Source: a virus. From it: 24,024 bases of DNA. A program made the translations under genes and the position numbers. The stretch spans positions 1 to 24,024 of the IMG/VR virus record IMGVR_UViG_3300027969_000418; one strand, given 5' to 3'. Positions 4,406 through 19,806 of this stretch are shown here, piece after piece (the first letter of the stretch is position 1; each line of letters opens with the position of its first letter). Below the pieces are notes generated by a model that was given only the letters and a program-made list of their open reading frames with translations, searched no databases and was not told where the DNA came from.

Positions 4406-6103
4406 ATGGCAATTTCATTTCCTTCTAATCCAGATATTGGCGCTTCATGGACTACAGCTGGCAAAACATGGCGCTGGGATGGTAAGCGTTGGACAACTGT
4501 AGGTGATATTGGTTACAGAGGTTCAGTTGGTTATACTAGTTCAGTTGGATATACTAGTTCTGTAGGATATCAAGGATCAGAAGGTTATAGAGGAAGTGAA
4601 GGCTATAGAGGTTCTATAGGATATACAAGTTCTGTAGGTTATAGAGGCAGTGAAGGATATAAAGGAAGTGAAGGTTATAAAGGTTCAGAAGGATATACAG
4701 GTTCTGTTGGTTATAGAGGAAGTGAAGGTTATAAAGGATCAGAAGGATATAAGGGAAGTGAAGGTTATAGAGGAAGTGAAGGTTATAGAGGATCAGTAGG
4801 ATTTCAAGGATCAGTAGGTTATACCAGTTCAGTTGGTTATACTAGTTCAGTTGGATATAAAGGCTCAGAAGGTTATCGTGGTTCTGTAGGATTTGTTGGG
4901 TCTGTAGGATATACCAGTTCAGTTGGTTACACTAGTTCTGTAGGATTCACTGGTTCTGTAGGATATTTTGGTTCTACAGGTTATACTGGCTCTGTAGGAT
5001 ATACTAGCTCTGTTGGATATAATGGTTCTGCAGGGTATAGAGGTTCAGAAGGTTATACTGGCTCTGTAGGTTATAGAGGCAGCGAGGGCTACAAAGGTTC
5101 TGAAGGATATAAAGGATCAGTTGGTTATCAAGGTTCAGAAGGTTATCGTGGCTCTGTAGGATTTCAAGGATCAGTAGGATATACCAGTTCAGTTGGCTAC
5201 ACTAGTTCTGTTGGTTATATGGGATCAGAAGGATATCGTGGATCAGAAGGTTTTAGAGGATCAATAGGATTTACTAGTTCAGTTGGTTACACTAGCTCAG
5301 TTGGATATAGTGGTTCTGAAGGATATCGTGGATCAGAAGGATATAAGGGAAGTGATGGATATAAAGGATCAGATGGATATAAAGGGTCCGAAGGTTATAA
5401 AGGATCAGATGGATATAAGGGAAGTGATGGTTATAGAGGATCAGAAGGATTTACTGGATCAGTAGGATATACTAGTTCTGTTGGATATACTAGCTCAGTT
5501 GGTTATGTTGGTTCATCAGGCTATCGTGGATCAGAAGGTTATACTGGTTCTGTAGGATATCTTGGATCAGAAGGTTACAAAGGTTCTGAAGGATATAGAG
5601 GCTCTGAGGGTTATCGTGGTTCTGAAGGCTTCACTGGTTCAGTAGGATATACTAGCTCAGTAGGATATACTAGCTCTGTTGGATATAATGGCTCTTCAGG
5701 GTATAGAGGTTCTGTTGGATATATGGGTTCAATTGGATATATTGAGCAAACATTAAGTGTTGCATTATCTAATGAACAAGATTCACTAATTGCTGGTACT
5801 TCTATTTTGACTATAAGATCACCATTTAGTTTAAATCTTTCACAAATACCAAGAGCATATATTACTAACGCATCTTCATCTGGTTTGCCATCAGTTGACA
5901 TAAAATTGAATGGCACATCTATTTTACATTCAACTAACAAATTAACAATAGATGTTAATGAGAAAACTTCTAGGACAGCAACTACTCCAACATCACTAGT
6001 AACAACAAGTATAGCTGATGATGATGAAATATCATTTGATGTTTTAAACTCTGGTACAGGAACTAAAGGATTAAAAGTAACATTATATTTCTGGAGAGCA
6101 TAA
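4406..6103 (+). CDS. Long collagen-like hexapeptide-repeat tail fibre protein (565 aa)
   Basis: Residues 1-34 are the N-terminal attachment-type module (W22-R-W24-D-G...W29) shared with the 1547 gene. Residues about 35-446 are almost pure G-[YF]-x-[GS]-S-x hexapeptides, roughly 68 units; x is often R/K at position 3 and E/V/D at position 6, giving charged blocks alternating with neutral GYTSSV pairs. About sixteen units have Gly replaced by Ser, always after Thr. Residues about 447-565 form a distinct beta-rich C-terminal domain with no collagen character, ending 'LYFWRA'. Gly at every third position with few prolines suggests an extended trimeric rod; a canonical collagen triple helix is not certain. 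The next gene is the glycine-rich protein, probably its partner. Repeat number may vary by recombination. Confidence 0.8.
   Translation: MAISFPSNPDIGASWTTAGKTWRWDGKRWTTVGDIGYRGSVGYTSSVGYTSSVGYQGSEGYRGSEGYRGSIGYTSSVGYRGSEGYKGSEGYKGSEGYTGSVGYRGSEGYKGSEGYKGSEGYRGSEGYRGSVGFQGSVGYTSSVGYTSSVGYKGSEGYRGSVGFVGSVGYTSSVGYTSSVGFTGSVGYFGSTGYTGSVGYTSSVGYNGSAGYRGSEGYTGSVGYRGSEGYKGSEGYKGSVGYQGSEGYRGSVGFQGSVGYTSSVGYTSSVGYMGSEGYRGSEGFRGSIGFTSSVGYTSSVGYSGSEGYRGSEGYKGSDGYKGSDGYKGSEGYKGSDGYKGSDGYRGSEGFTGSVGYTSSVGYTSSVGYVGSSGYRGSEGYTGSVGYLGSEGYKGSEGYRGSEGYRGSEGFTGSVGYTSSVGYTSSVGYNGSSGYRGSVGYMGSIGYIEQTLSVALSNEQDSLIAGTSILTIRSPFSLNLSQIPRAYITNASSSGLPSVDIKLNGTSILHSTNKLTIDVNEKTSRTATTPTSLVTTSIADDDEISFDVLNSGTGTKGLKVTLYFWRA
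4510..5745 (+). repeat. Large 18-bp-period coding repeat array
   Basis: About 1.2 kb of degenerate tandem 18-bp units encode the hexapeptide stalk. Several multi-unit blocks recur almost unchanged (for example blocks encoding GYTSSV-GYTSSV and GYKGSE-GYKGSE). It is not a CRISPR array: there are no unique spacers, the period is one hexapeptide and the frame stays open throughout. Confidence 0.85.
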
Positions 6104-7042: not shown

Positions 7043-8089
7043 ATGCCCACAAAGATATTTGTATCACAGATTGATGATACCTTAAATGATGGATCGCCAG
7101 CACCATTAGATTCTATAATTTATCTTGGTAATGATGGACCAACATGGAAATTAATTAATGAAATTTATCCTGTTGGTTTTAAAGGATCAGCTGGATTTAA
7201 AGGTTCAGAAGGTTTTAGAGGGTCAGTCGGTTTATTTGGTGAACCTGGTTATAAAGGTTCTACAGGCGATGATGGATTTAGAGGAGTAACTGGTTTTAGA
7301 GGTTCAATAGGCTATACTAGTTCTGTTGGATTTTCTGGTTCAATTGGTGATAAAGGAAGTTTTGGTGATACTGGTTATAAAGGATCAGAAGGTGATTTTG
7401 GAATAACTGGATATAAAGGTTCTGATGGTGGTACTGGATTTCAAGGTTCAGAAGGATACCGTGGTTCAAAAGGAATTACAGGATTTACTGGCTCAAAGGG
7501 CGCTATTGATCCATTTAACTTTTTAAATTTATCTGATGTTGCATTATATTATAACACATATGTTGGGTATGAAAATGCATATGTAAGAGTGAATGAATTC
7601 GGAGACGGAATATTTTTAGATACAACAGAATTGCTTTCTAACAATATAAGCAGTAATGTTTATTTCAATAACAACATAGTTGATAAACCTGTATTTAAAG
7701 GTTACTCAGAAACAGTAGTAAATAATTTAGTTGGTGCTAGTGTAATATGTAATCCATTAGATGGAAATATATTTAATATAACTTTAAACAATCCTGTGAC
7801 AACAATTGAATTAAGCAATTATATTACTGAACCAGATATAGTAGCTGGCAATTTTTATACATTGACATTGTTTATTAAACAAGGTGATGGTGATAATACA
7901 ATTGATTGGACAAATGCAAACTATAAAATTTTCTGGTCTATTGGAGATGGTGTATCACAAGAATCAGGACCATCACTATCAGTCACATTAAATTATATAG
8001 ATGTAATTACTGTTTCAACGTATGATGGTGGTGAAACTTGGTTTGGTGTATTAGGTGCCAAGGGATTTAACACTGCGTATTATGATTAA
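7043..8089 (+). CDS. Collagen-like tail fibre stalk protein (348 aa)
   Basis: The N-terminal ~44 residues differ from the other stalks: they begin 'MPTKIFVSQIDDT' and include 'PLDSIIYLGNDGPTWKL', suggesting a different attachment site. Residues about 45-154 are Gly-x-y triplets, less regular than in the 4406 gene and with more true collagen-like triplets (GEPGYKGSTG); one GYTSSV unit is present. Residues about 155-235 are non-repetitive with a hydrophobic beta pattern. Residues about 236-348 are a diverged copy of the C-terminal cap seen in the truncated first gene and the 1547 gene ('FYTLTLFIKQGDG', 'W..ANYKIFW', 'WFGVLGAKGF'). A ribosome-binding site (AGGAT) precedes the ATG. The following gene, 15 bases on, is a collar/HxH protein, completing the stalk-tip pair. 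Confidence 0.75.
   Translation: MPTKIFVSQIDDTLNDGSPAPLDSIIYLGNDGPTWKLINEIYPVGFKGSAGFKGSEGFRGSVGLFGEPGYKGSTGDDGFRGVTGFRGSIGYTSSVGFSGSIGDKGSFGDTGYKGSEGDFGITGYKGSDGGTGFQGSEGYRGSKGITGFTGSKGAIDPFNFLNLSDVALYYNTYVGYENAYVRVNEFGDGIFLDTTELLSNNISSNVYFNNNIVDKPVFKGYSETVVNNLVGASVICNPLDGNIFNITLNNPVTTIELSNYITEPDIVAGNFYTLTLFIKQGDGDNTIDWTNANYKIFWSIGDGVSQESGPSLSVTLNYIDVITVSTYDGGETWFGVLGAKGFNTAYYD
7174..7503 (+). repeat. Collagen-like coding repeat
   Basis: About 110 residues of Gly-x-y triplets, mostly in 18-bp hexapeptide units like those in the genes at 1547 and 4406 but with more sequence variation. Confidence 0.75.
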
Positions 8090-10685: not shown

Positions 10686-12902
10686 ATGACTTATTATTTA
10701 CAATTAAATTATCCAGCATCAGCTGTGGCTGGCATTCCAATTGAATGGGATATAGTCAATGGTGAACCAGATGAAACTTATTATATAACTACTAATATAC
10801 CAGATCATACTAGAATTCCTCCAACTGGTACATATTCGTTAGATGTAAATGGTGAGGCGTCATCAAATACAACATCATTTGGTAATTTTCTTGGTACAGC
10901 AAATATAGATTTTCATTTTCAATATAATGGATTATTCAGTAGAGTTGTAAATTTTACTGCTATAAAATTATGGGTTCCTGATGAAATATTAAAATCAATT
11001 GAACTAAATTGGAATTTTGATTATTTGCAAACAGAATTTGATAAACTAAAATTTTCAAATTACAATGGTAGTAATGGCAATAGTTTAAATGCTGGTGGTT
11101 CGTTATCAAATGATTTTTATATGAGAAATTGGAGTAGCTTTCAAGTTGGTGCTGAAACTAATTTAACATATAAAATAAATTTGACAGATTCGCCATATGG
11201 AAATACTGCGGTTGAAACTTCAGATTATGTATGGGCAAGAGGTCCTATTTTTCAATTAGAAAGAACTTACAGATGGAACGCAGAATTTTGGGCTAGAAAA
11301 ACAGTAACTGGTCCTGCAAATTCTGGTTCAATTTTTATGGTAATTTCTAATTATAATAGTAATGCAGTATTAATTAGTGCTGAAAATGATACTCATACAG
11401 ATGGGTTTGATTGGAATTATCCATTAGCTAATCTTTATCAAAATACTATGCCACTTGGTGTATGGACAAAATACAGATATACTATTGGTCCAGAAACAAT
11501 TAAAAATCATAGTGCAAATGCAAGATTTATTAGTCTTGGATTTATATGTAACTATCCATCCACTGGTGTAGTTGGCAATGATACTATACAATTTGCTGGG
11601 TTTTCATTAAGACCTTTTCTTGTACAAGATGAACCTATTCGTGGTCCAGAAGGATTTAAAGGTTCTCGTGGAATAACAGGGTTTACTGGTTCTATTGGTG
11701 ATCCAGGACCAGCTGGAACAGAACCTGGTCCAATAGGATTAACTGGATTTCAAGGTTCTACAGGCGCTAGAGGATTGCCGGGATATCGTGGGTGTGAAGG
11801 AGAAAAAGGACCACCAGGAGATGTGCCTGGACCACAAGGTGGGCAAGGACCAACTGGTTACAGAGGTTGTCAAGGTGAACAAGGAATAGTAGGGTTTCAA
11901 GGATGTAGAGGCGACCAAGGAAGTAGAGGCGATAAAGGTTATACGGGTTCAGCTGGAACAGAACCTGGTCCAGTAGGATATAGAGGTTCAGCTGGTAGAG
12001 ATGGCACAAATGGTACAGATGGAAAAAACGGAACCAACGGAACCAACGGAACAAATGGGACCAATGGAACCAATGGAACCAACGGAACAAATGGACAAAC
12101 TGGTGCTACAGGATCACGAGGTGAAACAGGATTTAGAGGTTCTGGAGGTGATAAAGGTCAACAAGGTGATCCCGGTGGTCCACAAGGAATACCAGGAATA
12201 AATGGTCAAAATGGTCAAAATGGATTTACTGGTTCTGTTGGTTTAACTGGTTCTGCAGGAAAAGAATATCGAGGATCAACTGGATATCGTGGTTCAGAAG
12301 GATTTAAAGGTTCTGAAGGTTATAAAGGATCAGAAGGATATCGTGGATCAGAAGGATATTTTGGATCAACGGGGTATCAAGGTTCAGGAGGATTTAGAGG
12401 ATCAGTTGGTGCAAGAGGCGTTAATGGTTTTACTGGATGTGCGGGCATTGAAGGACCAATAGGACCCACTGGATTTAGAGGTTCACTTGGAACTGATGCT
12501 GTAACTTTTCTATCTTATGCTAATGGAGAAGGATACGGTAATGAAGTGTGGGTATTTGAAGGAAAATTCTTTGACCAAGGTAATGGTTATAATCAAGTAA
12601 CTGGTTTATATACAGCACCAACAAGTGGGTATTATCATGTTCATATGAATGGTCTTACTAGACCTGATGCTATAAATGCAATTACATTGTGGTTTCAGGT
12701 AAATGGTTCTGCAATATTACAATCTCAATTTTTAGATTATAAATTAAATGATACTGTACCATCTCCAATAAGAATGTCAACGATTGTTCATTTGGAGCAA
12801 GGTGATACTATTAGTGTATTCGTAAATGATGCTGGTGGAACTAGCACGTTAAACAATTTGCCAAGATATACGAATTTTGGCGCATTTTTAATAGGAAAAT
12901 AA
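10686..12902 (+). CDS. Large collagen-like fibre protein with C1q-like C-terminal head (738 aa)
   Basis: There are three regions. Residues 1 to about 318 form a non-repetitive, aromatic-rich beta region, possibly a carbohydrate-binding or attachment domain ('NWNFDYLQTEFDKLKFSNYNG' onward); I do not recognise its family. Residues about 320-602 are true Gly-x-y collagen-like sequence with prolines (GDPGPAG, GPPGDVPGPQG), four Cys residues placed in triplets (GCE, GCQ, GCR, GCA), an uninterrupted NGT run and a short block of GYxGSE hexapeptides. Residues about 605-738 resemble a C1q/TNF-like trimeric head ('NQVTGLYTAPTSGYYHVHMNG', later 'VHLEQGDTISVFV'). The architecture stalk + C1q head suits a trimeric adhesin. 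AGGA precedes the ATG at a somewhat long spacing; no late promoter element is seen, so it is probably co-transcribed with upstream genes. Confidence 0.75.
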   Translation: MTYYLQLNYPASAVAGIPIEWDIVNGEPDETYYITTNIPDHTRIPPTGTYSLDVNGEASSNTTSFGNFLGTANIDFHFQYNGLFSRVVNFTAIKLWVPDEILKSIELNWNFDYLQTEFDKLKFSNYNGSNGNSLNAGGSLSNDFYMRNWSSFQVGAETNLTYKINLTDSPYGNTAVETSDYVWARGPIFQLERTYRWNAEFWARKTVTGPANSGSIFMVISNYNSNAVLISAENDTHTDGFDWNYPLANLYQNTMPLGVWTKYRYTIGPETIKNHSANARFISLGFICNYPSTGVVGNDTIQFAGFSLRPFLVQDEPIRGPEGFKGSRGITGFTGSIGDPGPAGTEPGPIGLTGFQGSTGARGLPGYRGCEGEKGPPGDVPGPQGGQGPTGYRGCQGEQGIVGFQGCRGDQGSRGDKGYTGSAGTEPGPVGYRGSAGRDGTNGTDGKNGTNGTNGTNGTNGTNGTNGTNGQTGATGSRGETGFRGSGGDKGQQGDPGGPQGIPGINGQNGQNGFTGSVGLTGSAGKEYRGSTGYRGSEGFKGSEGYKGSEGYRGSEGYFGSTGYQGSGGFRGSVGARGVNGFTGCAGIEGPIGPTGFRGSLGTDAVTFLSYANGEGYGNEVWVFEGKFFDQGNGYNQVTGLYTAPTSGYYHVHMNGLTRPDAINAITLWFQVNGSAILQSQFLDYKLNDTVPSPIRMSTIVHLEQGDTISVFVNDAGGTSTLNNLPRYTNFGAFLIGK
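11643..12492 (+). repeat. Collagen-like Gly-x-y coding region of the C1q-headed fibre
   Basis: About 280 residues of Gly-x-y triplets, with two short non-triplet breaks at 'TEPGP' and one at 'VPGP'. It contains proline-bearing triplets, the NGT run and, near 12280-12370, a block of GY-x-GSE hexapeptides closely similar to those in the 4406 gene, suggesting exchange between fibre genes. Confidence 0.7.
12004..12099 (+). repeat. 9-bp tandem repeat encoding NGT triplets
   Basis: Short tandem units such as AACGGAACC and AATGGAACA encode a run of Asn-Gly-Thr triplets within the collagen-like region of the 738-residue protein. Short near-identical units are prone to slippage by multiples of 9 bp, which would change stalk length without breaking the frame. 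Confidence 0.8.
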
Positions 12903-12905
12903 AAA

Positions 12906-13187
12906 ATGGAATATAAAATAATTTATACTGAAGCAGAAGATATGGCTATGAAAAGTATATCTTATTCTGTTGATGAGTGGGTACAAAATGTATGTCATGA
13001 GAGAGCAAGTAAAGCTATTGATGCTATTGTGGATAGATCATTATCTAAATTTTTTCAGGCTGGAATTCAAATTCCTTCATCAAAAGCAGAAATAGTATTA
13101 GCTGCTTTTGCAAACGGGTGGGAGAAAACTGCAGCTGAGACACATGATGAATTTATAGCTAGTTTATCAGCAAACACACAATCATAA
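12906..13187 (+). CDS. Small protein of unknown function (93 aa)
   Basis: I do not recognise this protein. It is 93 residues, acidic at the N-terminus ('YTEAEDMAMKSISYSVDEW'), then mostly predicted helix, with no signal peptide or membrane segment and a single Cys. It begins 3 bases after the large collagen-like gene, and its stop codon lies inside the late-promoter-like element that precedes gp13. Its location at the end of the fibre cluster suggests a small virion or assembly protein, but nothing in the sequence proves that. Its coding status is supported by tight packing and a clean fit between two confident genes. Confidence 0.6.
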   Translation: MEYKIIYTEAEDMAMKSISYSVDEWVQNVCHERASKAIDAIVDRSLSKFFQAGIQIPSSKAEIVLAAFANGWEKTAAETHDEFIASLSANTQS

Positions 13188-13190
13188 ATA
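13183..13190 (+). promoter_or_regulatory. Late-promoter-like element CATAAATA before gp13
   Basis: CATAAATA contains the stop codon (13185-13187) of the small upstream gene and ends 18 bases before the gp13 ATG, with an AAAGGG ribosome-binding site in between. It would start a transcript carrying gp13 and the two cargo genes. Confidence 0.55.
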
Positions 13191-13208: not shown

Positions 13209-13949
13209 ATGGCTACAATTACAACTAGAGACGGTTTCAAAGAGTATTGTCTTCGCAAACTTGGTAAACCAGTTATTGAAATTAATGTTGATGACGATCA
13301 GGTTGAGGATCGTATTGATGAAGCATTGAAGTATTATTGGGATTACCATTTTGATGGTACTGAGAAGATATACTATAAGCATCAGTTTACTGAAGAAGAT
13401 AAAGTAAACAAATATATTACTTTGCCTCAGAATATCATAGGCGCAGTAAATATATTTGATATCGGTGATTACATAGCTTCAAATAATATCTTCAACATCA
13501 GATATCAGATTGCTCTGAATGATCTTTATACCTTGACATATCAATCAATGGTTCCTTACTATATGGCATTCCAACAACTACAGCTTCTTGAACAGCTTCT
13601 TGTTGGTAAGCAGCCAATTAGATACAATAGAAATACCAATAAACTATTCATAGATGTTAGCTGGGACAAAATTATTGTTGGTCAATTTCTTGTGGTAGAA
13701 GCTTATTCTGTTGTTGATCCTGTAGGATTTACAGATGTATGGAATGACAGATGGCTACAGAGATATGCTTCTGAATTGATTAAGAAGCAATGGGGAACCA
13801 ATCTTACTAAGTTTGTTGGTATGCAATTACCTGGTGGTGTTACCTTTAATGGTGAAAAAATTTATGGTGATGCTCATGATGCAATTGATAAGTTGGAAGC
13901 AGAAATGATTAATAGTTACAGCTTGCCTGTTGCAGATATGATAGGATAA
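13209..13949 (+). CDS. gp13: Neck protein gp13
   Basis: This 246-residue protein matches the short gp13 of marine T4-like phages: an N-terminal 'FKEYCLRKLGKPVIEINVDD' segment, then 'QVEDRIDEALKYYWDYHFDG', and later 'DVWNDRWLQRYASELIKKQWG', all typical of the neck family. In T4, gp13 and gp14 form the neck that closes the filled head and receives the tail; T4 gp13 is longer (309 aa). The assignment is supported by position: gp14-gp20 follow in T4 order after two inserted genes. Start chosen by the AAAGGG ribosome-binding site 7-8 bases upstream. I cannot exclude that the 13/14 labels should be swapped, but the next structural protein is a better gp14. Confidence 0.8.
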   Translation: MATITTRDGFKEYCLRKLGKPVIEINVDDDQVEDRIDEALKYYWDYHFDGTEKIYYKHQFTEEDKVNKYITLPQNIIGAVNIFDIGDYIASNNIFNIRYQIALNDLYTLTYQSMVPYYMAFQQLQLLEQLLVGKQPIRYNRNTNKLFIDVSWDKIIVGQFLVVEAYSVVDPVGFTDVWNDRWLQRYASELIKKQWGTNLTKFVGMQLPGGVTFNGEKIYGDAHDAIDKLEAEMINSYSLPVADMIG

Positions 13950-13955
13950 AATTTT

Positions 13956-14513
13956 ATGTTACCATTTAATCTATTCATACAACTAGACGAAGATCAACAA
14001 CAAGCATTAAAATATGCTGCTAGAGCCCATGCTGGTCAAACAAGATCAGATGGTTCTGATTATATTCGTCATCCTGAAAGAGTTGCTGCGATTGTTAAAC
14101 AATTTAAACAATCACACAATCTTGATGCTCTTGTGAGTGCTGCATATACTCATGATACCATCGAAGATACCAATACAACTAAAGAAGATTTAGAAAAAAT
14201 GTTCGGTGCTCTTGTTGCTTCTCTTGTACAGGAATTAACTTCTGATAAAGAAGAAATTGCAAGAGTTGGCAAAACAGAATATTTGTCTCAGAAGATGAAG
14301 AAAATGACTAGTTATGCTTTGGTTATCAAGTTGGCAGATAGATTGGATAATGTACAAGATATCAAGTCAGCAAAGAATGCTGCATGGCGTGAGAAGTATA
14401 AGAAAGAAACTCTTAGCATAATGAGCTATATAGAGAAGGAAAGAGTTTTATCAAAGACTCATATGAAAATTATTACAGCTATACGCCATAAACTAGCAGA
14501 ATTGAGTCACTAA
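13956..14513 (+). CDS. SpoT/MESH1-like HD-domain protein, predicted (p)ppGpp hydrolase (small alarmone hydrolase)
   Basis: At 185 residues this is the size of stand-alone small alarmone hydrolases (MESH1 type), with no synthetase, TGS or ACT domain. Family motifs are in order: 'AARAHAGQTRSDGSDYIRHP' (residues 21-40, metal ligand H39), 'AAYTHDTIEDT' (62-72, metal ligands H66 and D67, catalytic-type E70 and D71), 'FGALVASLVQELTSDK' (83-98), and 'VIKLADRLDNVQDI' (123-136, metal ligand D128). All expected HD residues are intact, so an active Mn-dependent phosphohydrolase removing the 3'-pyrophosphate of (p)ppGpp is likely. It lies 6 bases after gp13 and 1 base before the repeat-protein gene, inside a structural operon where T4 has no gene, and would be expressed late with gp13. 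Substrate is inferred from motifs; a related nucleotide is possible. Confidence 0.8.
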   Translation: MLPFNLFIQLDEDQQQALKYAARAHAGQTRSDGSDYIRHPERVAAIVKQFKQSHNLDALVSAAYTHDTIEDTNTTKEDLEKMFGALVASLVQELTSDKEEIARVGKTEYLSQKMKKMTSYALVIKLADRLDNVQDIKSAKNAAWREKYKKETLSIMSYIEKERVLSKTHMKIITAIRHKLAELSH

Positions 14514-14514
14514 A

Positions 14515-16254
14515 ATGTTAATGTTCAAACAATTTATCAAAGAATATATGACCATCACAGGGTACAATGAAATTCTCAACGAAGAATTAAATGATGATCA
14601 AAAAGCAGTTGTCGATTCATGGGGTGCAAACACAAAGGCTAAGAAAATATCAGCTAATGTTATACCAAAAGGTGAAGATAGAACATATATTCCTCTAGAA
14701 CATCCAGATGATAATAAACCAGTAGAACCACATCCAGATGTGAAAGCACATCTTGAAAAGCATGGCTACAAGATAACTGATTATAGAAATAATAAAGCAG
14801 TCGAACCTAAGTATGGAAGAGAGATTCGTATTGGTAAAGCATTGAATGCTACTGGTGCTTCTAAAGATTTGATGGATACATTCAACAATGATCCTAAAAG
14901 GGCTGCTTCCAACTCTGGTAAGTTGGGCGTAGTTATTTCTCGTCACCCTCATGATGTTGCTGGAATGTCTACTGATAAAGGTTGGCGTTCATGCATGAAG
15001 ATGGGTAAAACAGGAAATAAAAAAGATGATGATGCTGGTCTATATAGTCATTATTTAAAACATGATGTTAAACAAGGAACTCATGTTGCTTATCTTGTAC
15101 ATGAACATGATAAAGAAGCAAAATCTCCTCTTGCAAGAATAGCATTGAAACCGTTCGAATCAGAAGATAAAAAAGATACTATCCTTAGACCAGAAGATAG
15201 AACATATGGAACATCTGATCATGCATTTGGTCATACAGTAAAAAAATGGGCAGAAACAAATTTTCCTGCTAAAGAAGGTAATATATATAGAAAAAATACA
15301 AAATTATATGATGATGATAACAAAGGTACAGTTGCTAGTACTAATACATTATTAAAAAGTAAAAGTTATATGGATAGAGCAGACGCTTTTAGTAATAGTG
15401 ATGTTACACATGAACATATTACTCAGGGATTAAACGACCCTATTGAAGAAGTTAGAAGAGCCGCAGTATCTCATCCAAATGCAACTAAAGAACATCTTTC
15501 TAAAGTATTAGATAACCCAAATGAAGAACGCCATGTAAGAATAGGTGCATTATTACATCCAAAATTGCCTTCAGAAGAAATTACTAAAGTTTTAAATAGT
15601 CCTGGAGGGTATAGAAATAATACAGAAAAAGAATATGCACTCAAGAATCCAAATGTAACACAAGAACATATTACTAAAGCTTTGAATGATCCAGATAGAG
15701 ATATAAGAAAATCTGCTATTCAAAATTCTAAAGTTACATTAAAACCAGAACATATTTCTAAAGTATTAGATAACCCAGATGAAGATACACAAACAAAAGC
15801 TATAGCTGTAAGAAGACCAGAAGCTACCGCAGAACATATTACTAAAGGATTAGATCATAACAATTCTTACGTAAGACATTTTGCCATCAAAAATCCTAAT
15901 GCAAACGAAGATCATATTACTAAAGCTTTATATGATCCTAATGCAGATGTTAGACGATCTGCTATTTTTCATCCTAAAGCAACACCAGAACATATTACAA
16001 AAGCTTTGAATGATAATGATGAAGATGTTGTTCAAGCTGCTATTAAACATCCAAATGCAACACCAGAACATATTACAAAAGCTTTGAATCATCCAAGCGG
16101 ATTTATAAGAAAAGATGCTATTGAAAATCCTAATTCAACAGAAGAACATGCCAATAAAGCATTAAAAGATTCAAGTGGTATGGTCGTAAGAGCGGCAGAA
16201 ACTCGTCTTGCACAACTTAGAGTAGCAGATAAAAGAAAAAGTAAAGAGCTATAA
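14515..16254 (+). CDS. Helical-repeat (LRV/HEAT-like) protein with unrecognised N-terminal domain (579 aa)
   Basis: Residues 1 to about 290 form an unrecognised charged domain with a conspicuous 'ISRHPHDVAGMSTDKGWRSCM' region (W157, S159-C160-M161); I recall similar 'W-x-SCM' stretches in other phage hypothetical proteins but no known function. From about residue 293 to the end are roughly ten repeats of 24-27 residues with consensus PNAT-x-EHITKALNDP-x-x-DVR-x-x-AI-x-H, resembling leucine-rich-repeat-variant or HEAT-like helical repeats that build a curved binding surface. It begins 1 base after the HD hydrolase; a second in-frame ATG (14521) is a possible start, giving the more natural 'MFKQF'. 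Its stop lies inside the gp14 late promoter. Not part of the T4 core set; probably cargo acting with its neighbour. No catalytic call is made. Confidence 0.65.
   Translation: MLMFKQFIKEYMTITGYNEILNEELNDDQKAVVDSWGANTKAKKISANVIPKGEDRTYIPLEHPDDNKPVEPHPDVKAHLEKHGYKITDYRNNKAVEPKYGREIRIGKALNATGASKDLMDTFNNDPKRAASNSGKLGVVISRHPHDVAGMSTDKGWRSCMKMGKTGNKKDDDAGLYSHYLKHDVKQGTHVAYLVHEHDKEAKSPLARIALKPFESEDKKDTILRPEDRTYGTSDHAFGHTVKKWAETNFPAKEGNIYRKNTKLYDDDNKGTVASTNTLLKSKSYMDRADAFSNSDVTHEHITQGLNDPIEEVRRAAVSHPNATKEHLSKVLDNPNEERHVRIGALLHPKLPSEEITKVLNSPGGYRNNTEKEYALKNPNVTQEHITKALNDPDRDIRKSAIQNSKVTLKPEHISKVLDNPDEDTQTKAIAVRRPEATAEHITKGLDHNNSYVRHFAIKNPNANEDHITKALYDPNADVRRSAIFHPKATPEHITKALNDNDEDVVQAAIKHPNATPEHITKALNHPSGFIRKDAIENPNSTEEHANKALKDSSGMVVRAAETRLAQLRVADKRKSKEL
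15391..16230 (+). repeat. Degenerate ~75-bp coding repeats (helical-repeat domain)
   Basis: About ten coding repeats of 72-81 bp, best conserved around bases encoding EHITKALN. Two adjacent units near 15980-16085 are nearly identical, consistent with recent duplication. Confidence 0.75.
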
Positions 16255-16257
16255 ATA
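16250..16257 (+). promoter_or_regulatory. Late promoter TATAAATA before gp14
   Basis: A perfect match to the T4 late promoter core, ending 26 bases before the gp14 ATG and containing the stop codon (16252-16254) of the helical-repeat gene. It separates transcription of gp14 and the terminase genes from the cargo genes. Confidence 0.7.
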
Positions 16258-16283: not shown

Positions 16284-17012
16284 ATGGCAACTAATTTTTA
16301 CTTCAACAATTTTTCTTCTTCTGGTGAACAGAACCTGATAGAAAATCTTATCATTGAATCTATAAGGATTCATGGTGTAGATACCTATTATGTCCCAAGA
16401 ACAATTATTACCAGAGACAATACTTTCAGAGAACAATCAGTCACCGAATATGGTGAAGGAATTTCTATTGAAATGTATATCAAGAATGTTGATGGCTTTG
16501 AAGGTGATGGCGAATTCCTATCTAAGTTTGGTGTTGAAGTAAGAGATCAGATCACATTCTCTGTTGCTATGAGAGTATTTGATACTGAAGTTGGTTCTAA
16601 TCTTAGAAGAGATAGACCACTTGAAAATGATCTTGTTTGGTTTCCATTCAACCAACATCTTTATCAAATTAAATTTGTCAATAAGAAACCCATATTCTAT
16701 CAGATGGGCGCACTACAGATGTACGATGTTGTATGTGAATTGTTTGAATATTCTAATGAGGTATTCAATACTGGCATCAACATAATTGATGACACTTATA
16801 ATGCTCTTCTTACTACTACTGATCCTTATATTCTTACTGGTGAAAATGGTGTACGTATTACAGATGAAAATGGTTATGATATTCTTGATGAAGATTACAA
16901 CATTGGAACCTTGGATACTGCATCTCAGAATGATTATTTTGAATCAGAAGGAATTGATTTCTTAGATTTCTCTGAGAGAGACCCATTCAGTGAACTTGAG
17001 AGGAGAATTTAA
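16284..17012 (+). CDS. gp14: Neck protein gp14
   Basis: This 242-residue protein (T4 gp14 is 256) has the family's signature stretches: 'SIRIHGVDTYYVPRTI' near residue 30, 'VDGFEGDGEFLSKFGVEVRDQ' around residues 69-89, and 'RPLENDLVWFP' with 'QIKFVNKKPIFYQMG' further on. gp14 binds gp13 at the filled head to form the neck platform for the tail. The C-terminal ~70 residues are an acidic extension with 'NG-x-x-I' repeats ('ENGVRITDENGYDILDED'), of unknown role. The stop overlaps the gp15 ATG by one base, indicating coupled translation, and a perfect late promoter lies just upstream. Confidence 0.85.
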   Translation: MATNFYFNNFSSSGEQNLIENLIIESIRIHGVDTYYVPRTIITRDNTFREQSVTEYGEGISIEMYIKNVDGFEGDGEFLSKFGVEVRDQITFSVAMRVFDTEVGSNLRRDRPLENDLVWFPFNQHLYQIKFVNKKPIFYQMGALQMYDVVCELFEYSNEVFNTGINIIDDTYNALLTTTDPYILTGENGVRITDENGYDILDEDYNIGTLDTASQNDYFESEGIDFLDFSERDPFSELERRI

Positions 17013-17821: not shown

Positions 17822-18206
17822 TAAAGATGTGATTTCAAATTCTTTAGGGATACCTTCTATGACTATTCCACCACCTCCTAATCCTGTTATAATGCCAGTT
17901 GAGGAAAGAAACGACTATGAATATGCTCGTCGTAATATGTACGATATAATTGAAAAAGGACAGAATGCCTTAGAAGATATTGTAGATATTGCCAGACAGT
18001 CTGAGTCACCTAGAGCATTTGAGGTTGTCACAAATCTTATCAAGACACTGGCTGATGCCAACAAAGACCTTATGGACTTGGCTAAGAAGAATAAAGAATT
18101 GTCTAAGCCTGATGCCAGCAATGAAAATAAAACTGTGAACAATAACCTATTCGTTGGATCATCCTCTGAACTATTGAAAATGATAAAAGATAAAGCAAAT
18201 GAATAA
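17805..18206 (+). CDS. gp16: Small terminase subunit gp16
   Basis: This protein of 131-133 residues is predominantly helical, as expected for the DNA-recognition subunit of the packaging motor (T4 gp16 is 164). It has a proline-rich N-terminal arm ('TIPPPPNPVIMP'), a helical region from about 40 to 105 ('YEYARRNMYDIIEKGQNALE', then a long amphipathic helix ending 'LAKKNKEL'), and a disordered linker before a C-terminal helix. The start is ambiguous between ATG at 17805 and ATG at 17811; the latter gives the more natural 'MDNKDV'. It overlaps both gp15 and gp17, and its identity depends mainly on this invariant position before the large terminase gene. Confidence 0.8.
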   Translation: MIIMDNKDVISNSLGIPSMTIPPPPNPVIMPVEERNDYEYARRNMYDIIEKGQNALEDIVDIARQSESPRAFEVVTNLIKTLADANKDLMDLAKKNKELSKPDASNENKTVNNNLFVGSSSELLKMIKDKANE

Positions 18207-19806
18207 TACAAATGATGTATATCTTGGTAATATAAATCTTAAACGTAAAGGTATTCAACTAGAATTTACACAAGAACAAATTCTAGAGTATATAAAATGC
18301 GCTAACGATGTTAATTACTTCTGTGAAAAATATGTAAAGATTGTCAGTATTGATAGGGGTCTTGTTCCTTTTACTCCATATATTTATCAGAAAAAAATGT
18401 TTAAAACATTTGATGATAATCGTTTTACTATATGTAAGATGCCTCGTCAGGTGGGTAAGACAACTGGTGTGGTTGGATATATGCTCCACAAGATTCTTTT
18501 TAACGAGAACTATAATATTGCAGTTCTAGCCAACAAACAGATTCAGGCTAAAGAAATTCTATCCAGAATTCAACTCGCATATGAGTGGTTGCCCAAGTGG
18601 ATGCAGCAAGGCATTATCCAATGGAACAGAGGAAACATAGAACTAGAGAATGGTTCTAAGATTCTCGCAGCTGCTACCTCATCATCCGCCATTCGTGGAC
18701 AGTCCTATAACTTAATTTATCTTGACGAGTTTGCATTCGTGCCTAGAAATATTCAAGATACATTCTTCGCATCAGTCTTCCCTACCATTACATCTGGTCA
18801 AAGCTCTAAGCTATTGATTACTTCTACTCCAAATGGTATGAATTTATTTTTTAAAATATGGATGGACTCTGTTAATAATGAAAATTCTTATGCTCGTGTT
18901 GACGTTCACTGGTCAGATGTTCCCGGTAGAGATGAAGCTTGGAAAGTAGAGACTATCCGTAATACATCAGTTGACCAGTTTCGTCAAGAGTTTGAATGCG
19001 AATTCTTAGGTTCAACCAATACTCTTATTCATCCTTCTGTTCTTTCTAGACTTGTCTACATGAGACCTATTGATAATCCTCATGAAGTAAAAATTTATAA
19101 ACATCCTATCAAAGATCATGTGTATGCAATAACAGTGGATGTGAGTGAGGGATTAGGAATGGATTCTTCTGCCCTTGTAGTTGTCGATTGCTCTACTGTT
19201 CCTTATGAAGTAGTGGCTACTTTCAAAGATGCCAACATATCTCAGTTGATGTTACCAACTCTATTGGCTAATATTGGAAAATACTACAATGATGCCTCTG
19301 TTTTGGTGGAGATAAATATAGGATCACAAGTAGTAAATATTCTACATCAAGATTTAGAATATGACAACATTGTAATGACCAGAATGAGCGGAAGAAAAGG
19401 CACAGCAATTGGTACAGCTGGCAATCAAAACAGATTAGGTATAAAAACAACTCAAATTACTAAAAGAATAGGATGCGCTAACTTAAAGACTCTTGTTGAA
19501 TCAGATAAAATAATTTTAAATGATTATGATATTATAAATGAACTGTCAACTTATGCTGTAGACAAGAACACTTATAATGCGGAGGAAGGTCATCATGACG
19601 ACTTGGTAATGTGTTTGGTGTTATTTGCTTGGATGGTAAGCCAGAATTATTTTAAAGATGTGTCGAATACAGATATTCGTAGAAGAATTGAGGAAGATGT
19701 GGAAGAAGATTTCACACCTTTTGGGATTATAGATGATGGTAGAGAAGATGAAATGGAAAACAAGATATTAAGCCAAAGTGAATTCGAACAATTTTTCCTA
19801 AATTGA
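18199..19806 (+). CDS. gp17: Large terminase subunit gp17 (ATPase-nuclease)
   Basis: This 535-residue protein is the packaging motor that translocates DNA into the prohead and cuts it. ATPase domain: Walker A-type 'RQVGKTT' at residues 83-89, an adenine-binding-type Q64 upstream in 'YQKKMF', Walker B with catalytic glutamate 'LIYLDE' at 172-177, and the coupling-type 'TSTPNG' near 208-213. Nuclease domain of RNase H fold: first acidic site in 'ITVDVSEGLGMDSSALVVVD', further Asp/Glu, and the C-terminal 'EEGHHDDLVMCL' motif. It is shorter than T4 gp17 (610), mainly at the N-terminus. The first 8 bases overlap gp16. The gene ends 61 bases before gp18 with a late promoter in the gap. Confidence 0.95.
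   Translation: MNNTNDVYLGNINLKRKGIQLEFTQEQILEYIKCANDVNYFCEKYVKIVSIDRGLVPFTPYIYQKKMFKTFDDNRFTICKMPRQVGKTTGVVGYMLHKILFNENYNIAVLANKQIQAKEILSRIQLAYEWLPKWMQQGIIQWNRGNIELENGSKILAAATSSSAIRGQSYNLIYLDEFAFVPRNIQDTFFASVFPTITSGQSSKLLITSTPNGMNLFFKIWMDSVNNENSYARVDVHWSDVPGRDEAWKVETIRNTSVDQFRQEFECEFLGSTNTLIHPSVLSRLVYMRPIDNPHEVKIYKHPIKDHVYAITVDVSEGLGMDSSALVVVDCSTVPYEVVATFKDANISQLMLPTLLANIGKYYNDASVLVEINIGSQVVNILHQDLEYDNIVMTRMSGRKGTAIGTAGNQNRLGIKTTQITKRIGCANLKTLVESDKIILNDYDIINELSTYAVDKNTYNAEEGHHDDLVMCLVLFAWMVSQNYFKDVSNTDIRRRIEEDVEEDFTPFGIIDDGREDEMENKILSQSEFEQFFLN

Follow-up and report, generated by a model that had tools for sequence, protein, structure and literature searches.

A small alarmone hydrolase with a predicted T4-type capsid-targeting propeptide in the neck gene cluster of an uncultured T4-like phage

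The DNA analysed here, referred to as the window, is a stretch of 24,024 nucleotides (positions 1 to 24,024 of IMG/VR virus record IMGVR_UViG_3300027969_000418) covering the region of a T4-like phage of aquatic bacteria that encodes tail, neck and terminase proteins, from gp13 to gp19. The features relevant to this study are the following:

13183..13190, + strand: T4-type late-promoter box CATAAATA before the gp13-SAH-HEAT genes, 18 nt 5' of the gp13 start
13209..13949, + strand: gp13-type neck protein (head-tail adaptor), upstream of the SAH (phrog_211, E=4e-40)
13956..14513, + strand: small alarmone hydrolase (SAH) gene, 185 aa in the precursor form, ATG start, without internal stop
13956..13991, + strand: predicted capsid-targeting propeptide MLPFNLFIQLDE of the SAH, a pattern common to T4 IPIII/IPII and relatives
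between 13991 and 13992: predicted gp21 cut after E12
14004..14420, + strand: HD_4 hydrolase domain, residues 17-155 (Pfam HD_4, E=3.6e-19)
14515..16254, + strand: 579-aa protein with HEAT-like repeats (Pfam HEAT), homology to jumbo-phage proteins and the tag-like N-terminus MLMFKQFIKE
14515..14544, + strand: capsid-targeting-like tag of this HEAT-like protein
16250..16257, + strand: late-promoter box TATAAATA before gp14 (motif scan)
16284..17012, + strand: gp14-type neck protein, downstream neighbour (PF11649, E=9e-30)
1513, 4371, 7000, 13183, 16250 and 19814: NATAAATA late-promoter boxes shortly before six genes

The genes for gp13, the SAH and the 579-aa HEAT-like protein form a tight unit behind the CATAAATA box, which occupies the same place in two relatives (L033 and L035). 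The initial annotation had located the SAH between gp13 and gp14 and proposed its late expression together with gp13. The location is correct, with the amendment that the HEAT-like gene, which had gone unmentioned, also precedes gp14; the late co-expression is backed at the sequence level by the box before gp13 and its recurrence in the two relatives. Sites matching NATAAATA lie 15-60 nt upstream of six of the 21 window genes (random mean, 0.36), nine sites being found on the plus strand of the window and one on the minus strand. The exact TATAAATA alone showed no excess over shuffles, the excess being confined to NATAAATA ahead of gene starts; in L007, TATAAATA stands 22 nt upstream of the SAH itself.

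The tail-fibre region of the window encodes collagen-like proteins with long GYxGSxGY repeats (1547-2629, 4406-6103, 7043-8089 and 10686-12902), and the gp17 gene (18199-19806) is uninterrupted. In two other contigs, the terminase large subunit gene is split by an insert that resembles an intein and holds an endonuclease-like ORF (L001:10864-13457 and L003:12401-14994). The photosystem gene PF00124 was absent in 13 related contigs, hence there is no sign of a cyanobacterial host.

ppGpp is a bacterial alarm nucleotide, and the initial annotation had read the ORF as an intact SpoT/MESH1-type hydrolase of such alarmones, proposing a profile search and a structure comparison with MESH1 as checks and a higher-scoring profile match to some unrelated HD family as evidence against. 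The residues it named (H39, H66-D67, E70-D71 and D128) are present at these positions of the 185-aa ORF and, like H25, R30, K125, R129 and N132, do not vary among 42 aligned family members; the opposite strand across the gene is riddled with stops. NCBIfam spoT_relA was matched with E=8e-26 over model positions 1-144 of 687, i.e. the hydrolase part only, and Pfam returned HD matches only, the synthetase and regulatory domains being absent. The top solved sequence was MESH1 (E=4.6e-18; 5e-25 with the family profile). With the predicted structure (pLDDT 90.9, pTM 0.88), the first fold matches were P. aeruginosa SAH, MESH1, RelH and Rel, and every solved match at E<=0.001 was an alarmone hydrolase or a Rel/SpoT protein, apart from lmo0812, which is uncharacterised. 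Profile, solved-sequence and fold searches all ranked alarmone hydrolases first, no unrelated HD family scored higher in any of them, and both proposed checks favoured the SAH/MESH1 class. Differences from L033 fall at codon positions 1, 2 and 3 in 18, 9 and 48 cases, and substitutions against three relatives are mainly at third positions, the pattern of a protein under purifying selection. These sequence and model comparisons support the product of 13956-14513 as a stand-alone MESH1/SpoT-type alarmone hydrolase with predicted activity. PADLOC gave no match for the SAH, a near-identity search of cultured phages was negative for close relatives of this region, and a pattern-based scan of bacterial and archaeal genomes with P0001, which could reveal close relatives only, found none.

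A MESH1-like enzyme, packaged or not, might instead act on another 3'- or 2'-phosphate nucleotide (NADPH, PAPS or similar) and so concern metabolism and not alarmones. Human MESH1, to which the SAH is closer in sequence than to any other solved protein, was crystallised with NADPH and with PAPS, and bacterial SAHs can be promiscuous (PMC9765508). The fold and profile matches, however, are ppGpp hydrolases as a class, and no sequence feature indicates NADPH in particular; we regard such a substrate as quite improbable.

Among the matches listed, the closest relatives carry the gene order gp13-SAH-gp14 (L033, L007 and L038) or gp13-SAH-HEAT-gp14 (L035, L037 and L006). In L003 and L035 a homing-endonuclease-like ORF is inserted ahead of the SAH; the one in L003 (7327-8001, between gp13 and the SAH) is GIY-YIG-looking. 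In L101 the SAH gene is found between gp14 and gp15, in L041 between gp16 and gp17: it is an accessory gene shifting position inside the late structural cluster. Its position between gp13 and gp14 would suit a catalytically idle structural component of the neck or head, but the catalytic residues are invariant throughout the 42 members and the place in the cluster differs among phages, and we give this explanation hardly any weight.

The N-terminus of the SAH deserves separate attention. Residues 1-12, followed by D, place F4, F7, I8 and L10-D11-E12 directly before the HD domain. The T4 IPIII/IPII propeptide, MKTYQEFIAE/A (slash, cut site; letters from database record L130), has the same layout: MLPFNLFI of the SAH and MKTYQEFI of T4 both carry aromatics at 4 and 7, followed by a hydrophobic residue 8, whereas the SAH has its E at 12 instead of 10 and D as residue 13. 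Mutations in T4 assigned targeting mainly to residues 4 and 7 and processing to 8 and 10; T4 propeptides are 10-19 residues long, and gp21 cleaves after L/I-x-E (PMC9026906). L10-D11-E12 of the SAH agrees with this rule for the end of a 10-19-residue propeptide, and the untagged Vibrio and Burkholderia phage homologues start no more than 1-2 residues from the predicted cut site.

A profile scan of viral contigs yielded at least 469 SAH relatives, and 80 loci were kept. The Acinetobacter 'phage' SpoT match (H48; CAKLQF020000004.1, 149871-153323, L135) was rejected: it is a full-length spoT beside gmk and rpoZ and looks like bacterial chromosome. Among the matches listed, 50 of the 58 unique members have a phi-x-E whose E lies at -13 relative to the first histidine of the HD domain; in the other eight it is found at -14 (three), -17 (one) or -19/-20 (three), or is lacking (one). 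Stand-alone members show, for example, QLDE/D, TLNE/S and LLNE/D, and the motif is also present where the domain is buried in proteins of 378-1385 aa (GLDE/S, QFDE/G, EVDE/S and PVAE/G). Of the controls, one SpoT and the SAHs from seven cultured phages, two had E at -13; where residue -15 could be scored in these, it was not hydrophobic.

Examples of N-termini of stand-alone members are MLSFSHFIKE, MIRFKAFISE, MISFKKFIAE, MIRFKQYIAE and MKSFNQFREEITLLNE, with a T4 IPIII/IPII-like layout. The pattern M..[FYW]..[FYW] stands at the start of 29 of 42 unique stand-alone SAHs among the matches listed, of 65 of the 885 remaining ORFs in these loci (7%) and at 31 of 4252 internal Met (0.7%). The 885-ORF control contains genuine tagged neighbours and a few SAHs missed by the filter, which makes the contrast conservative; the Fisher P = 2e-21 treats kin as independent, several rows being near copies, and such P values are therefore too small. 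The strict pattern is missing in 13 of the 42 stand-alone members, some of which are without a recognisable tag.

Similar N-termini recur on unrelated genes. In L091, MKTFYQY[IL].E occurs three times, on unrelated bodies, beside the MKTFYQYTSE of the SAH; L057 has MIRFKTFINE and MIRFKEFIE beside the SAH's MIRFKAFISE; and in L048 and L054 DUF6267 and DUF5824 proteins with such tags are found next to SAHs. The similarity extends to DNA in L054 (5284-5890), where the SAH gene and its predecessor match over 56 bp except at 2 positions; this stretch opens 6 nt ahead of the ATG and closes 2 nt beyond the LNE codons, after which the genes diverge. For shared DNA that stops at the predicted cut, there is hardly an explanation other than a movable targeting propeptide. 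The tag thus common to unrelated neighbours suggests, at the level of sequence, that the SAH is carried in the virion and enters the cell along with the DNA.

In L054 the tag alone seems to have been duplicated or transferred, and clusters of genes with capsid-targeting-like N-termini occur in L091, L054, L097, L105 and L048, their bodies including DUF6267, DUF5824 and many without Pfam match. The 579-aa protein of the window has an N-terminal domain homologous to proteins of the jumbo phages Lu11, HRDY3 and Atu_ph07, followed by C-terminal HEAT-like repeats. Judged by its tag, the product of 14515-16254 is probably a second capsid cargo. A 127-aa ORF between gp16 and gp17 of L001 (10473-10856, + strand), with the tag MKTFKNFIFE and a ParB-looking body (VDGHHRYRDA), encodes a further candidate.

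The SAH could also be an ordinary late enzyme that stays unpackaged and lowers (p)ppGpp in the cytoplasm of the already infected cell, its N-terminus being an extension of the first helix. Indeed, one predicted helix spans residues 4-24 and runs through the tag, and the untagged SAHs of other phages sit far from structural genes; model confidence is, however, lowest over the first ten residues (pLDDT 53). Such a role leaves unexplained the fixed distance of phi-x-E, the retention of aromatics 4 and 7 while the tag letters vary, and the sharing of the tag with unrelated neighbours, in L054 down to the DNA; we consider it unlikely.

Processing of the proposed kind calls on gp21. The 24-kb window, itself a genome fragment, does not contain the gp21 gene; among the matches listed, the closest relatives (G001, G002 and G003) encode both a gp21-type protease and gp23, as do the carriers G008 and G011-G013. 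The gp21 of G002 has an LNE/D motif of its own near the N-terminus. For several carriers of the multidomain form no clear gp21 was found in the contig; incomplete contigs or divergent proteins may be the cause, and packaging is less certain for these carriers.

In this form, SAH relatives reside inside proteins of 378-2817 aa. In eight of them (L008, L056, L059, L064, L067, L070, L080 and L092) the partner parts are cytidylyltransferase-like, a weak ADP-ribosyltransferase (ART-PolyVal), DUF6267 or DUF5824; in one multidomain relative, the polyvalent ADP-ribosyltransferase domain was matched below threshold. Conservation is limited to the motif ahead of the SAH domain; counted overall, phi-x-E-small motifs of the multidomain relatives do not clearly outnumber those of shuffles, for which reason regular processing of these proteins is not claimed. 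The domain tree requires five changes between the tagged and multidomain states, at least two to three of them forced by well-supported branches.

We therefore favour, with a probability of about two in three, an alarmone hydrolase bearing a T4-type capsid-targeting propeptide, which would be packaged, cut by gp21, injected, and active before phage expression. We infer packaging, cleavage, injection, substrate and benefit along these lines: the SAH would be made late, together with the neck proteins, and captured by the prohead core through its first residues (F4 and F7); the prohead protease gp21 would cut after L10-D11-E12; and the resulting enzyme of 173 residues and 19.7 kDa would stay in the head and enter the cell with the DNA. 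In this next cell it may remove the 3'-pyrophosphate from (p)ppGpp, (p)ppApp or toxSAS/CapRel-modified tRNA before any phage gene is expressed. Virion packaging, which the initial annotation had called conceivable without a sequence reason, now appears as the best-supported reading, and it would have the SAH act as soon as the next cell is entered, not late in infection as first proposed.

More tentatively, and with the odds leaning a little against so broad a claim, a modular, movable tag may load many enzymes, the SAH included, into the heads of aquatic T4-like phages. The injected SAH would then be a pre-emptive counter-defence, erasing ppGpp/ppApp or repairing toxSAS-modified tRNA before phage transcription starts. 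Certain toxSAS antitoxins act as hydrolases and undo pyrophosphorylation (PMC9712102; PMC11782079), and PaSpo, the SAH of phage SSU5, neutralises toxSAS toxins (PMC9712102). Should the SAH ride in the virion, alarmone signalling would be hit at time zero, the most helpful moment against a defence that shuts translation. The tag with phi-x-E before the domain also offers a sequence rule for a candidate repertoire of injected proteins in uncultured T4-like phages, where most tagged genes seen (DUF6267, DUF5824 and many without family) are unexplained.

Compared with known systems, the window SAH shares the HD fold and all metal-binding and catalytic residues with MESH1 and the bacterial SAHs (human MESH1, P. 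aeruginosa SAH and C. glutamicum RelH), at TM-scores of about 0.7-0.8 and 21-28% identity to these solved proteins; they are without a phage propeptide, whereas the window SAH has the targeting tag and neck-gene neighbours. Phage SAHs are already known (PMC7824862; PMC12846349), and the described ones that we found were regarded as ordinary intracellular enzymes. Those of cultured phages (Vibrio pv27, Burkholderia BcepSauron, and PaSpo of Salmonella phage SSU5) belong to the same enzyme family, phrog_990, and the nearest have 43-49% identity to the window SAH; the examined ones are untagged and outside the structural cluster, while the window SAH is tagged and inside it. The polyvalent proteins of PMC5512222 resemble the multidomain proteins in which relatives of the window SAH occur, and are predicted to be injected; the alarmone domains that we found described for them are synthetases, in contrast to the stand-alone hydrolase behind a tag seen here. 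With its single domain the window SAH falls outside the polyvalent class, only some of its relatives being multidomain. Our literature search, with subscription journals mostly outside its coverage, found no report joining alarmone hydrolases with capsid targeting or injection. IPI, IPII, IPIII and Alt of T4 are, as here, products of late genes with a short N-terminal propeptide that has aromatic residues 4 and 7 and ends in a gp21 motif, and IPI is an injected counter-defence protein (PMC9026906); the T4 cargo includes no alarmone hydrolase, and its cargo domain is unrelated to the SAH. Phage SAHs and T4 capsid cargo are each known separately, and what is new here is the tagged N-terminus.
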